DNA from: Candidatus Nanoarchaeia archaeon
GTDB taxonomy: Archaea; Nanobdellota; Nanobdellia; SCGC-AAA011-G17; JAFCDX01
DNA length: 64,000 bases
Assembly (NCBI GenBank): GCA_028716945.1
Contig: JAQUOT010000001.1
Coordinates: forward strand, 466,471 to 530,470
Reading direction: 5' to 3'
Shown here: positions 19,962 through 35,240 of the stretch, in pieces
Numbering within the stretch: position 1 is the stretch's first letter
Layout of the letters: each line of letters starts with the position of its first letter
The notes under the pieces: generated by a model
Database searches by the model: none
The model's input: the letters and a program-made list of their open reading frames with translations, nothing else
Told to the model about the DNA's origin: nothing
Made by a program: the position numbers and the translations under genes

Positions 19962-21491
19962 TTATTTAGGTTTACTCTTGCTTAATTCCATCATATTTTT
20001 TCTTTGAAGGTATTCAATACAAGTTTTTAGATAAACTCTAGCATCTCTTCCTAATTTTTCAATTTCTTGTCCAGCTAATTTATTCTCTTTGAATTCTTTT
20101 TCCATTTTTGTTATATCTTTTAATATTTCAAATAATCTTTCTGGTAGTTTTTCTTTGTCTACTAATTGTTTAAATGCAGTTAATATATTTGATTCTGTAA
20201 ACTTAATATTATTTACTTCTAACATTTCTTTTGTGATTTTAATACAACCCTCATAAGTTTCTTTTATGTTTTCTACGTCTTTTTTCTTTTGTATTTTTTC
20301 AAATATTTCTTTTATTTTTTTCAAGAAATCTTCTGCGTCATTAAGTAATTCATCAATTTCCTTACCACTAATACTTTTTACTTTTCCATGTTCTATATCT
20401 TTGTAATATTTTCTTACTTTTTCAAGAATATCAACATATTTTTTATCTAATAATCTTTCTTCTTTAACAAATATCTTGTCCATTAATTCAATTGTTTCTT
20501 TTGGTGTTGGTGGTGTTAAACCATATACCATTAATAATGCCTGAGCCGGATTTAATATTGCATAGTATAAATCTTCTCCAACTACGCTTAATAGTTTGTA
20601 TCTTGTTCTTTCTAATAATTTTTCAGAAACATCCATCTGCATTTCAATTGCTTCTCTGCTTGGTTTAACTTTACCCATTCTTAATAATAATTTCCAAGGC
20701 ATGAAAACTCCTCTATCATATAATGGAATTCCATCTCTTAATAATGTGAAAATAACTGGATGTGCATCTTTAATTGAATCCCAGAAATCAGTTAAGATAT
20801 AAGTTTGAACGTGGAATTGTTTTTTTATTCCAGTCATTTCTGCTGCTTGGTCTCCCATTGATAAAATAATTGCTCTTAATTTATCTTTTAGTTCAACTCT
20901 TGGCATTTTTTTAACATCAGTATCATCTACAATAATATAAACATCGATATCATTTGATTTTTCTCCCCTAAATAAAGAACCTGCTGCAACATAACTTACA
21001 ATATATTTTTCAAATTTCTTTAAAGACATTGTCTTGTGTATTTCAGCAATTTTTAATGCAGCTAAAACATCTGTAGGATCATAAATAATTGCAGACATTG
21101 CAATCATGTTTAGAATTTCATATTTACTATCAAAACAAGCTTCCCTTAAATCATAAAGAGACATTATTCTTGGTTTTATATTTTTATCAGTATCATCAGC
21201 AATTTTTTCAATGAATTTTATTTCTTTTTCCATTAATGCTAATGGATCTTTAATATTATCAGAATTTATTACAACTAAAACATTGATATTATTTTTATTT
21301 TCCTTTTCTGGGGGGAGTAAAGATATTCCAATTATTCTTTTCTCAGGATCTTTAATTACTTTATTCTTAAAAGAGTCTAATTTAGCTTTTAATTTTTCAA
21401 GTTTTTCTTTAACTTCTTTTGGTATTTCAGGTATTTTTTCAGAACTTTTAGTGGTTTCTTCAATATCTTTTGGTTCTTTGTTAGTTGCCAT
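19962..21491 (-). CDS. Nucleotidyltransferase-domain protein, 509 aa
   Basis: A polymerase-beta-type nucleotidyltransferase core near residues 165-185: YVAAGSLFRGEKSNDIDVYIIVDD, where GS and DxD are the metal-binding signature. It is flanked by a Lys/Glu-rich N-terminus (about 50 residues, coiled coil) and a long helical C-terminus with further charged coils. A segment DAHPVIFTLLRDGIPLYDRGVFMPW follows the core, as in minimal nucleotidyltransferases. Substrate unknown (tRNA, protein or antibiotic-like). It is a long protein of a type seen in DPANN genomes. Confidence 0.7.
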   Translation of the reverse strand: MATNKEPKDIEETTKSSEKIPEIPKEVKEKLEKLKAKLDSFKNKVIKDPEKRIIGISLLPPEKENKNNINVLVVINSDNIKDPLALMEKEIKFIEKIADDTDKNIKPRIMSLYDLREACFDSKYEILNMIAMSAIIYDPTDVLAALKIAEIHKTMSLKKFEKYIVSYVAAGSLFRGEKSNDIDVYIIVDDTDVKKMPRVELKDKLRAIILSMGDQAAEMTGIKKQFHVQTYILTDFWDSIKDAHPVIFTLLRDGIPLYDRGVFMPWKLLLRMGKVKPSREAIEMQMDVSEKLLERTRYKLLSVVGEDLYYAILNPAQALLMVYGLTPPTPKETIELMDKIFVKEERLLDKKYVDILEKVRKYYKDIEHGKVKSISGKEIDELLNDAEDFLKKIKEIFEKIQKKKDVENIKETYEGCIKITKEMLEVNNIKFTESNILTAFKQLVDKEKLPERLFEILKDITKMEKEFKENKLAGQEIEKLGRDARVYLKTCIEYLQRKNMMELSKSKPK

Positions 21492-21602
21492 CTTACAGAT
21501 AATAGTTTAAAACCCATATTTATAAATATTGTGATTTTTGTAAGCAAAAAGCTTTTAAATTATCTTTAGTAACAGATTCTGTGGACCCATAGTCTAGTGG
21601 TT

Positions 21603-21633
21603 AACCTTTAAGAGTAATCTTAAAAGTCCATAA
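21603..21633 (+). other. tRNA-Val intron 1 (D-loop, after position 20a)
   Basis: 31 nt. Central helix GTGG (21597-21600) with CCAT (21628-21631); 5' bulge TTA (21601-21603) cut after the second base; 3' bulge AAA (21632-21634) cut likewise. The intron body is a hairpin, ACCTTTAAGA with TCTTAAAAGT, with one mismatch. Position is non-canonical. Confidence 0.8.
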
Positions 21634-21646
21634 ACGACGTTGCCCT

Positions 21647-21675
21647 TTAAATTGGCATAAGCTAATTTAGGCAAG
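21647..21675 (+). other. tRNA-Val intron 2 (between positions 33 and 34)
   Basis: 29 nt. The exon anticodon-stem strand TTGCC (21640-21644) pairs with intron GGCAA (21670-21674) as central helix; 5' bulge CTT (21645-21647); inner helix TAAATT/AATTTA (21648-21653 with 21664-21669) directly abutting; 3' bulge AGT (21674-21676). The fold competes with the true anticodon stem until the intron leaves. Confidence 0.8.
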
Positions 21676-21679
21676 TACA

Positions 21680-21694
21680 AGTAAACACTAAGTC
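21680..21694 (+). other. tRNA-Val intron 3 (canonical 37/38)
   Basis: 15 nt. After intron 2 is gone, CTTA (21645-21646 joined to 21676-21677) pairs with TAAG (21689-21692); 5' bulge CAA (21678-21680), 3' bulge TCA (21693-21695), inner helix GT/AC, outer helix the true anticodon stem. A strict BHB at the standard place. Confidence 0.8.
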
Positions 21695-21731
21695 AGGCGA
21701 AGACCGCCGGTTCGATTCCGGCTGGGTCCAC

Positions 21732-22427
21732 TCATATTTTTAAAGGAACAATCTCTTTAAATTGCTCATTATAAGGCATACTTGTAGATATAGAACATCT
21801 TGAATATTCTTTTCCATCTTTTTTAAGTATATTTTTGTATGGACCTAACATTTTAATTTTATAATATTTTTCACATAATTTGTTAATTTCTAATAAGAAG
21901 GTATAATTAGATCCATTTAACATTATTCCATATACTTTACTAAAATAACCGTCTGTATCAAACAAACCTGCTAAAAAATGTTTGAATAACTCTCTATTTT
22001 GAACCTCCTTAGGTATCTGTAAATTTAATTTTTTATTTTCAATGTTTAAATATTTACTAAAATAGAGCCATACAAATTTATTGTTTATCTCAAGAACATA
22101 ACAATTGTTGTAGTTTTTCTTATAGATTCTTGTTGGAACATTAAATTCTTTTTTTAGATATTCATTTAACCTGATTAGATATTGTTTAGAATCATTATAA
22201 ATATATAATTTTGTTCTTGGGTATTTTGAAACCTTTCTTATGGACTTCTCTAATCTTCCATCTCCCATAATTACTCCAAATAAATAAGCAACATCTTTAT
22301 TTACTTCTTTTGGAAGTTTTATCTTATGGTTAGACCTTTTTACCTTTGTAAATATGTAACCTTCTTTTTCTTCTAAAAGTATAGAATCTTTACTTATTAT
22401 AGAATAATCTAATATTTTATTTAACAT
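21732..22427 (-). CDS. LAGLIDADG homing endonuclease, free-standing
   Basis: 231 residues with both dodecapeptide motifs: VAYLFGVIMGDGRLEK (about residue 48) and FKHFLAGLFDTDGYFSK (about residue 150), each with the catalytic Asp, so a monomeric double-motif enzyme. It ends one base beyond the intron-rich tRNA-Val gene and is convergent to it. LAGLIDADG enzymes copy themselves or their host intron into uninterrupted alleles by double-strand cleavage. It is not inside an intron or intein here; it may have targeted the tRNA gene. An rtcB intein with its own LAGLIDADG domain lies 10 kb away. Confidence 0.88.
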   Translation of the reverse strand: MLNKILDYSIISKDSILLEEKEGYIFTKVKRSNHKIKLPKEVNKDVAYLFGVIMGDGRLEKSIRKVSKYPRTKLYIYNDSKQYLIRLNEYLKKEFNVPTRIYKKNYNNCYVLEINNKFVWLYFSKYLNIENKKLNLQIPKEVQNRELFKHFLAGLFDTDGYFSKVYGIMLNGSNYTFLLEINKLCEKYYKIKMLGPYKNILKKDGKEYSRCSISTSMPYNEQFKEIVPLKI

Positions 22428-23021: not shown

Positions 23022-23426
23022 ATGAAATACAAATTTCTAGAACATAAAGCAGATGCTAAGTTTCAAGCATTTGGGAAATCTTTGGAAGAAGCCTTTTCTA
23101 ATGCAGCTCTTGCTATGACTTCTATTATGATATCTCCAGAATTAGTAGAATCTAAGATAACTAAAAAAATTACTGCTTCTGGAAAAGATAAAAAAGCTTT
23201 GTTATATAATTTTCTTGAGCAATTTTTAGTTTTATTAGATATAGAAAGTTTTATTCTTCATGAAGTTAAAAATATAAAAATTACTGGAAATAAACTAACT
23301 GCAGAAGTTGTTGGAGATTTAATAACTGATAAATATTCTTTAAAGAGCGATGTAAAAGCAGTTACTTATAATCACATGGAAATAAAAGAGAAACCTTATA
23401 TTGTTCAGGTTGTTGTGGATATTTAA
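23022..23426 (+). CDS. Archease (RtcB activator)
   Basis: 134 residues: MKYKFLEHKADAKFQAFGKS, EEAFSNAALAMTSIM, LLYNFLEQFLVLLDIESF and a C-terminal KAVTYNHMEIKEKPYIVQVVVDI. The metal-site residues of the family are visible (H-x-AD near the N-terminus, T-x-NHM near the end, terminal Asp). Archease speeds the guanylation cycle of the RNA ligase RtcB. In many genomes archease and rtcB are neighbours; here the MoxR/variable-protein operon lies between them. Confidence 0.95.
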   Translation: MKYKFLEHKADAKFQAFGKSLEEAFSNAALAMTSIMISPELVESKITKKITASGKDKKALLYNFLEQFLVLLDIESFILHEVKNIKITGNKLTAEVVGDLITDKYSLKSDVKAVTYNHMEIKEKPYIVQVVVDI

Positions 23427-32396: not shown

Positions 32397-35240
32397 ATGG
32401 ATACAAGACTAAAAAAGATATCAGAATATGAATGGGGGATTGAAAAAACAGGCAAAATGCTTGTTCCAGGTAAAATATTTGCTTCTAAGAAATTAGTTGA
32501 AGCAATAGAGCCTGAAGCAATCCAACAATTAGCAAACGTTGCAACATTAAAAGGGATCCAAAAGAGTGCTCTGGCAATGCCAGATATACATTCAGGATTG
32601 TTATTAAGTTAGATCTTATAACCCTGAGATGGTTTCCCTATAGGTGGAGTTGCAGCTTTTGATCTAAAAGAAGGTATAATCTCGCCTGGTGGCGTTGGAT
32701 ATGATATTAATTGTTTAACCGAAGATTCCAATATTTTAGGAGAATTTGGTACTTTTAAAGAAATAAAAGATTTTCAAGAGGATTTTATAGAAATTGATTC
32801 CGGTAAAGATTTAATTTTAAAAAAGAAAATTTTCTTGAATAGGTTGACTACTCTCAACATAAAATCTAAGAGATTAGAAGATAAAGAAATAGAATTTTTT
32901 ATGGTAAAAGATAAAGATAATATTTTTGAAATGCAAACAGAATGTAATTTTAATATAAAATCTACTAAAAATCATCCTTTCTTAACAAAAAAAGGAATGA
33001 TCTTACTAAAAGATTTAGAAAAAAATAAAGAAATTGCAATAAATACTTTTAAAGGAGTTAATTATAATCAAAGGATAGATAGGAAAAAAGCTATTTTATC
33101 TAAATTATTTGGATATTTATTAGGCGATGGCTATGTAAATATTTCTAAAAATAAAGGATATATCTCTTTTTATGGACAAAAAGAAGATTTAGAAGAGATA
33201 CAAAAAGATTTGAAAGGATTGGGTTTTAATTCTAATTTAATTTCAAGAGAAAGAAATCATAAAATTAATACAAAATATGGAATTAAAGAATTTAGCGCTA
33301 AGAATTATGAATTATATAATCGATCTAAGGAATTTGCATTTTTATTAAAAGAATTAGGTATGCAACTTGGAAATAAAACAAATCAGAAATTTTTACTTCC
33401 AGATTGGATAATGAATGGAGAAATTTATGTAAAAAGATTGTTTTTGGCAGGATTTTTCGGGGCAGAATTAAGTTCTCCAAGCACTCACACAAAAACAGGA
33501 TTTTATTCTCCTATTTTATCACAAAATAAGAATACTAAATTGAAAAATAATGCAAGAGAATTTTTATTGCAAATAACAAAATTACTAGAAGAATTTGGTG
33601 TTAAAGTTAATAAAATAAGTGAAGATAAAGAATTAGTTAATTTAAGGTTTAGATTAATTATTTCTGCTCAAGAAGATAATTTATTAAATTTATATCAAAA
33701 AATAGGTTATGAATATAATAAAAAAAGAAAAAGATTAGCAGATATAGCCTGTCTGTACATCTTAAAGAAAAAACAAATACAAAAAGAAAGAAGTGAAATT
33801 GCTAATAAAATAAAAGAATATAAGATGAAAGGATTCAAACTTAAAGAATTATATTCTAACTTTTCAGGTAAAGTAAATAAAAGATTTATTGAAAGGCATT
33901 ATTATGAAAAGTGTAATCAAAGAATAAATTTAGATTTCATCTCTTTTGAAGAGTTTAAGAGATTAAAATTAAAAGAATATGAAAAATATGGTTGCATTTT
34001 TGATACTATCAAATCAATTGTTAAATTAAATAAACAAGAGAAGGTATATGATTTTACTGTTAAAGATAATCATAACTTTATTGCAAACAATTTTATAGTT
34101 TCTAATTGTGGAGTAAGAATTTTATCTACTAGTGTTTCTGTAAAAGAATTTCTTAAAAAAAGAGAGCAATTAATTGAAGAAGTTTACAAAAATGTTCCTT
34201 CGGGTTTAGGTAGTAAAGGAAGAATTAAAGTTACTAAAGATTTGTTAATGGAAGTTTTAAAAAAAGGAACAAAATGGGCAGTTGAATCTGGATATGGAAT
34301 TAAAGAAGATATACAAAGAACAGAAGAATATGGTTGCATGCCAAAAGCAGATCCAAGTGTAATTTCAGATACTGCATTAAAAAGAGGAATGCCACAATTA
34401 GGTTCGTTAGGTTCAGGAAATCATTTCTTAGAAGTTCAGCAAGTTGATAATATATTTGATGAAAAAATAGCAAAAGCATTCGGAATTAACAAAGAAAATG
34501 TTACTGTAATGATTCATTGTGGTTCAAGAGGTTTAGGACATCAAGTTGCTAGCGATTATATTAAATTAATGGAAGATAAATTTGGTTTTAAAGATTTAGC
34601 AGATAGAGAATTAATAAATGCTCCAATAAATTCTGATTTGGGTCAGAAGTATTATGGTGCTATGAGTGCAGCAGTAAATTTTGCTTTTGCAAACAGACAA
34701 ATGATAATGCATTGGGTTAGAGATTCTTTTAAAAATGTTTTTGGTGATGTAAAAATTGATTTAATTTATGATGTTGCTCATAACGTGGCTAAAATGGAAA
34801 AACATAAAATTGATAATAAAATAAAAGAAGTTTGTCTGCATAGAAAAGGTGCAACAAGATCTTTTGGTCCTGGAAATGAAAGTTTACCTGAAGTTTATCA
34901 AAAAACAGGAGTGCCGGTATTGATTCCGGGGTCGATGGGAACTTCTTCATATATAATGGTGGGAACAAAAAAAGCAGAAGAAATTTCATTTGGAAGTACT
35001 GCTCATGGTGCTGGAAGAATAATGTCAAGACATTCTGCATTAAAACAATTTAGGGGAGAAACCATTAAAAAAGAATTACATGAAAGAGGAATAGAAGTAA
35101 AATCAGGTTCTTATGCTGGATTAGCTGAAGAAGCACCGGGCGTGTATAAAGATATTGAGTCGGTTATAGAAGTTTCTCATAATGTGGGTTTAGCAAGTAA
35201 AGTAGCAAAAGTTGTTCCTTTATGTGTTATTAAAGGTTAA
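32397..35240 (+). CDS. rtcB: RNA-splicing ligase RtcB, interrupted by a BHB intron and an intein
   Basis: The reading frame breaks at 32610-32612 (TAG) shortly after MPDIHSG. Removing 32599-32628 joins 32598 to 32629, restores the invariant MPDIHSGYGFPIGGVAAFD and continues to 35240. Predicted precursor 937 aa; after removal of the 465-aa intein, 472 aa, normal for RtcB. Conserved parts: GYDIN/CGVRIL (metal-binding Cys), IHCGSRGLGHQ, CLHRKGATRSFGPGNE, PGSMGTSSYIM and STAHGAGRIMSR (guanylated His). RtcB joins 2',3'-cyclic phosphate and 5'-OH ends, the very ends produced by BHB cutting, so this mRNA needs its own product. Confidence 0.88.
32599..32628 (+). other. BHB-type pre-mRNA intron in rtcB (30 nt)
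   Basis: Inner helix GTTAT(T)AAG with CTTATAAC (32600-32608 with 32615-32622); 5' bulge ATT (32597-32599) cut after the second base; central helix CAGG/CCTG (32593-32596 with 32623-32626, extendable by one T-A pair); 3' bulge AGA (32627-32629) cut after the second base. The cut sites predicted from structure are exactly those needed to rebuild the Tyr codon. Confidence 0.85.
32712..34106 (+). other. Intein in RtcB with LAGLIDADG endonuclease domain
   Basis: 465 codons between GYDIN and CGVRIL. N-terminal block CLTEDSNILGEFGTF (Cys1), block B STKNHPFLT, endonuclease motifs LFGYLLGDGYVN and LFLAGFFGAELSS (second acid as Glu), C-terminal blocks VYDFTVKDNHNFIANNF and IVSN before Cys+1. The penultimate residue is Ser instead of the usual His. 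It sits directly before the catalytic metal-binding cysteine. Confidence 0.92.

Follow-up and report, generated by a model that had tools for sequence, protein, structure and literature searches.

RESULTS

A tRNA-Val(UAC) gene with three introns

A tRNA-Val(UAC) gene in the 64,000-nt stretch of DNA analysed here (the window) very probably contains three BHB introns, of which intron 2 would be removed and its flanking exons ligated before intron 3, with intron 1 leaving at any time. The gene lies in a genome of 0.80 Mb and 27.5% G+C (G000) and is organised as follows:

21552-21562, + strand: putative TATA-like box (CTTTTAAATTA), read by eye, ~20-30 nt upstream of the tRNA 5' end
21583-21730, + strand: tRNA-Val(UAC) gene, 148 nt, Rfam match 42.2 bits
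21583-21602, + strand: exon 1, acceptor 5' strand and D-arm to position 20a; matches the intronless orthologue of G001
21603-21633, + strand: intron 1, 31 nt, D-loop position 20a/21, relaxed BHB/BHL
21634-21646, + strand: exon 2, D-stem 3' strand, anticodon-stem 5' strand TTGCC (21640-21644), C32 and U33
21647-21675, + strand: intron 2, 29 nt, position 33/34
21676-21679, + strand: exon 3, 4-nt microexon TACA, comprising the anticodon UAC and A37
21680-21694, + strand: intron 3, 15 nt, canonical position 37/38
21695-21730, + strand: exon 4, A38, anticodon-stem 3' strand, variable loop, T-arm, acceptor 3' strand and A73

At default settings ARAGORN does not call this gene, and with introns allowed it mis-assigns many intron-bearing tRNAs. 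We therefore wrote a BHB-aware splice search, whose sole inputs are BHB geometry and a cloverleaf score and whose criteria are relaxed, stricter ones having missed several genes. The search returned a single solution for the Val gene (introns 21603-21633, 21647-21675 and 21680-21694), in which insertions make up 75 of the 148 nt and the mature product has 73 nt, the loop CTTACAA and the anticodon UAC. The spliced tRNA has the U33, purine 37, 5-bp anticodon stem and A73 that go with this anticodon in tRNA-Val(UAC). It shares 89% identity across all 73 positions with an intronless tRNA-Val(TAC) from a genome of the same family (G001), CCCTTACAAGGCG being identical in both, and intron removal restores a molecule that matches this orthologue end to end. 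Sequence and comparison together establish the exon borders and the predicted mature tRNA. The pairings and letters that an earlier note on this DNA had claimed at 21640-21700 are present where it placed them; its exon 3, read as TA, proved to be the part that enters the helix, the full exon being TACA.

In intron 1 the central helix is formed by GTGG (21597-21600) and CCAT (21628-21631) with one G-U pair, a 5' bulge TT|A and a 3' loop AA|A. Intron 2 has the central helix TGCC (21641-21644)/GGCA (21670-21673) and an inner hairpin of 9 bp (TAAATTGGC/GCTAATTTA). The central helix of intron 3 pairs CTTA, assembled from 21645-21646 and 21676-21677, with TAAG (21689-21692), and its outer helix pairs TTGCC (21640-21644) with GGCGA (21696-21700). 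There is no outer helix at intron 1 and one of 2 bp at intron 2, so both are relaxed BHB forms. All three introns have four of four central pairs and 3-nt bulges at the geometric positions. When the intron letters were shuffled with the exons fixed, a BHB core recurred at frequencies of 0.011, 0.0003 and 0.0005 at the three junctions, and chance is therefore no serious explanation of the cores.

Intron 2 is predicted to leave before intron 3

In the unspliced RNA the BHB of intron 3 lacks an outer helix and two of its four central pairs; removal of intron 2 gives it all four, as Watson-Crick pairs, and an outer helix of 5 bp. As the earlier note had proposed, the CTTA strand of the canonical intron arises only on joining exon 2 to exon 3, and since it is contiguous only after removal of intron 2, intron 2 should precede intron 3. 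Folding predictions agree with the note on the competing stem as well: in the full precursor TTGCC pairs with the intron sequence GGCAA at a probability of 0.96-0.99 and with GGCGA at ~0.004, and once intron 2 is gone the true anticodon stem TTGCC/GGCGA is predicted at 0.71-0.93. Forcing BHB 3 is predicted to cost 11.6 kcal/mol in the presence of intron 2 and 2.3 kcal/mol after its removal. Strand contiguity and these energies bear out the idea that the order is written in the sequence. Folding was run at 25, 37 and 60 °C and gave the same picture at each temperature. Even after intron 2 removal the central helix of BHB 3 is a minority fold (~0.2) in these calculations, which leave out proteins, modifications and tertiary structure.

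BHB 1 and BHB 2 are each predicted to cost ~0.4 kcal/mol in the full precursor, and BHB 2 costs 0.2-0.9 kcal/mol when intron 1, intron 3 or both are removed. The removal of intron 2 before intron 3 is well supported in silico, BHB 3 forming in these models only after intron 2 has been excised. The predicted dependence is one-way, BHB 2 being equally stable with or without intron 3. Intron 1 is independent in the model and removable at any point, which leaves three of the six possible orders (1-2-3, 2-1-3 and 2-3-1). A scheme in which intron 1 has to leave first was considered and dropped, since the motif of this intron stays stable in every state and BHB 3 does slightly better while intron 1 remains.

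The earlier note also had RtcB ligating between the cuts. In a nicked, unligated complex the CT pairs of BHB 3 drop to ~0.02 and the TA pairs to ~0.001, compared with ~0.19 and 0.11-0.18 in the ligated RNA. The near loss of these pairs supports ligation before the last cut. The central helix is unfavourable without ligation; that ligation precedes the next cut is what we reasonably infer from it.

Alternative explanations

Obligatory order has to be weighed against mere preference, with intron 3 being cut through a three-way junction while intron 2 is still present, or after intron 2 has been cut but not ligated. A constrained fold combining TTGCC/GGCGA with a split CT...TA helix does exist, the unligated complex keeps its anticodon stem (0.74-0.96), and split tRNAs form BHBs between separate RNAs (PMC4033280). 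However, the intron 2 hairpin interrupts the central helix of the split-helix fold, which is therefore no BHB, and its full cost is 11.6 kcal/mol; in the unligated complex the central helix is almost absent. We consider a preference quite unlikely and retain an obligatory order of intron 2 before intron 3.

The exon definition itself could be wrong, since on paper the loop pieces can be joined otherwise, for example as a single longer anticodon-loop intron without a 4-nt microexon, giving another isoacceptor. However, every other BHB-consistent solution fell short of the cloverleaf score, the tRNA body is 89% identical to Val-UAC orthologues with an identical loop, and the gene is the only one for Val-UAC found in the 97.6% complete assembly (a second copy may lie in the missing part); a wrong exon definition is extremely unlikely. 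The unusually large insertions and the failure of default ARAGORN could instead be the marks of a degenerate pseudogene overloaded with insertions, but all stems are intact, a BHB core is found at all three junctions and the single copy serves a heavily used codon, which makes decay very improbable. With one Val-UAC gene found and GTA used at 22 per 1000 codons (469 long ORFs), the splicing pathway must work. A functional gene with three introns is the reading followed below.

In the pathway that we propose, EndA could cut intron 1 in the D-loop at any time, and would cut intron 2 in the state in which TTGCC pairs with GGCAA of the intron. RtcB would then join exon 2 to the 4-nt exon 3, so that the CTTA strand (C32-U33 plus U34-A35) would become continuous and pair with TAAG of intron 3. 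The freed TTGCC would pair with GGCGA, making the canonical 37/38 BHB, and in the last step EndA would cut this motif and RtcB would close the anticodon loop. The order of these steps is a prediction from folding, and from the known enzymes we infer cleavage by EndA and ligation by RtcB.

tRNA introns elsewhere in the genome

Introns are found in at least 23 of the 34 tRNA genes of the genome. In the splice-search solutions eight genes carry more than one, the Ser-GCT and Tyr genes among them being also readable with a single intron. The tRNA-Phe gene (C1:205115-205264) has three introns. The tRNA-Ser(CGA) gene (C1:82829-82967) has two by eye, the scored solution being different, and tRNA-Thr(UGU) (C1:374780-374878) has two, of which the upstream one interrupts the outer helix of the 37/38 motif. 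The anticodon stem is interrupted by the upstream intron in both Ser-CGA and Thr-UGU.

The splicing machinery

EndA, RtcB and archease are all encoded in the genome, and the rtcB and archease genes both lie within the window:

23022-23426, + strand: archease (PF01951), a known RtcB cofactor family
32397-35240, + strand: rtcB, the tRNA-splicing ligase gene, split by a predicted mRNA intron and by an intein
32599-32628, + strand: predicted BHB-type mRNA intron in rtcB, 30 nt, absent from G001 rtcB
32712-34106, + strand: RtcB intein with LAGLIDADG domain, absent from the G001 orthologue

The single EndA gene found in the genome (C1:389470-390054; L027, 1204-1785) encodes 194 residues with N and C domains (three families searched) and is alpha4-like; among named genomes its closest relatives are in Candidatus Woesearchaeota and Nanoarchaeia MAGs. 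No second subunit was found in the genome with the three families, and a very divergent one may be present. One EndA gene is the rule in the order, with a match in 58 of 61 genomes. The Crenarchaea-specific loop (CSL; K44 in A. pernix) corresponds to a gap in this EndA and in 50 other DPANN EndAs (51 in total). The enzyme has none of the marks of the broad-specificity (alpha-beta)2 or epsilon2 forms, namely a second subunit, a three-unit fusion or a CSL/ASL lysine loop. According to reviews, only (alpha-beta)2 and epsilon2 EndA remove relaxed motifs efficiently (PMC6379350, PMC4033280). Introns 1 and 2 are relaxed and the EndA is alpha4-like; either the alpha4 enzyme of this lineage is therefore broader than thought or a further factor takes part. 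Specificity loops have been proposed to co-evolve with unusual introns (PMC6379350, PMC12397907), and a single, loop-less EndA in an order with predicted relaxed-motif tRNA introns conflicts with this proposal.

The frame of rtcB is broken at AMPDIHSG by an insert with three stops and picks up again at GFPIGG. CAGG and CCTG of the insert form a BHB core with a pair probability of 1.0; there is an inner helix GTTAT/ATAAC but no outer helix. Without the insert the reading becomes HSGYGFPIGG, as encoded by the uninterrupted gene of G001, and in an alignment with the solved RtcB of Pyrococcus horikoshii the spliced protein shows no gap at the junction. The core was reproduced in none of 200000 shuffles. 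A genome-wide scan for BHB introns joining open frames gave 71 candidates versus 72 in a mirrored control; the scan is therefore without power, and the rtcB intron call does not rest on it. If the intron is spliced, making RtcB would depend on RtcB to ligate its mRNA. In a literature search of limited coverage we found no report of a ligase requiring the splicing of its own mRNA.

Orthologous genes and intron history

The tRNA-Val gene of G039 has a D-loop intron at the site of intron 1 and shares with it both the GTGG/CCAT helix and the bulges TTA and AAA. In G028 and G002 the gene carries an intron at 37/38, whose CTTA/TAAG helix is that of intron 3 but uninterrupted, and none at 33/34; the G002 gene has a D-arm intron in addition. 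The patterns used to search 103 genomes of the order gave no counterpart of intron 2, and in the same genomes the pattern for the joint 33/34 and 37/38 layout matched the Val locus and otherwise only sequences that are not tRNA-like, which is weak evidence for absence elsewhere because the pattern is strict. As read from these sequences, the simplest history would have the 37/38 intron in place first, with intron 2 arriving later within its BHB.

Almost identical D-loop introns (aatctta...gatggaca) occupy the same site in tRNA-Val(GAC) of the present genome (C1:374893) and in tRNA-Val(UAC) of G003 (L133). Their presence in two isoacceptors of two genera suggests transfer between isoacceptors.

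LAGLIDADG ORFs beside tRNA genes

The following ORFs adjoin tRNA genes:

21732-22427, - strand: free-standing LAGLIDADG-like ORF (PF14528), convergent with tRNA-Val, its stop codon adjoining the tRNA 3' end
C1:16494, C1:71417, C1:205215, C1:250613, C2:138155 and C2:183498: other tRNA-adjoining LAGLIDADG ORFs of the genome

On the other side of the tRNA-Val gene there is a 509-aa ORF (19962-21491, - strand) with a weak HEPN domain match.

Seven of the 12 non-intein LAGLIDADG ORFs of the genome lie at most 90 nt from a tRNA gene (Val, Phe, Asn, Asp, His, Thr and initiator Met; P = 1.3e-6 versus other long ORFs), and several overlap a tRNA end. All seven adjoining tRNAs contain introns (P = 0.046). 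Five more such ORFs lie 0-30 nt from intron-bearing tRNAs in G002 and G003, where regions around tRNAs were sampled. The ORFs beside tRNA-Val in G002 and in G039 group as sisters (98/98), and so do the tRNA-Asn ORFs of the present genome and G002. The tRNA-Val gene of G001 has neither an intron nor a LAGLIDADG ORF nearby.

An exclusive association with intron-bearing tRNAs was rejected, since LAGLIDADG ORFs adjoin intronless tRNA-Gly in G010 and G025. In G003, G028 and G053 the Val introns are present and no LAGLIDADG ORF was detected in the flanks examined. These exceptions make homing a lead and not a result: the tRNA-adjoining ORFs may encode homing endonucleases with tRNA specificity, through which tRNA introns spread.

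DISCUSSION

The tRNA-Val(UAC) gene offers a clean, testable case in which the order of splicing would be fixed by an intron inserted into the cleavage motif of another. It extends nested introns to DPANN genomes, where the single EndA is alpha4-like and was not expected to handle them. The mechanism by which archaeal tRNA introns spread has been called unknown (PMC4090602), and LAGLIDADG ORFs found repeatedly at intron-bearing tRNA genes are a concrete candidate. Taken together, the observations allow a tentative and rather doubtful joint picture: tRNA introns would be mobile through LAGLIDADG homing endonucleases specific to particular tRNAs, intron 2 would be a recent arrival that created an obligatory order, and processing would depend on a loop-less homotetrameric EndA and on an RtcB with a BHB intron in its own mRNA.

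Among known layouts, the closest to that of the tRNA-Val gene is Methanothermobacter tRNA-Pro, whose introns lie at 32/33 and 37/38.

The arrangement is a new case of a known one, as predicted here: ordered, nested archaeal tRNA introns go back to Sugahara 2007 and Tocchini-Valentini 2009, as cited in PMC3978253. Compared with the nested pre-tRNAs in PMC3978253, the present gene belongs to a Woesearchaeota-like (DPANN) lineage with one alpha4-like EndA, and between its 33/34 and 37/38 introns lies a microexon of 4 nt made up of precisely the anticodon and nucleotide 37. The value of the case lies in the lineage, the anticodon microexon and three unexpected companions, namely the loop-less EndA, the LAGLIDADG ORFs and the rtcB intron and intein.

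Pyrobaculum likewise has tRNAs with up to three introns, many at non-canonical positions (PMC4390854), and in the intron-rich sets of Thermoproteales and Asgard archaea, as here, most tRNA genes are affected (PMC4033280, PMC11291895). Those Crenarchaeota have a heterotetrameric EndA with the specificity loop, which is absent here. Cyanidioschyzon merolae also has several introns per tRNA that are removed stepwise, the 37/38 intron last (PMC3978253, PMC9602550). Its motifs can fold independently and the order follows their stability, whereas in tRNA-Val(UAC) the last motif would not exist beforehand.
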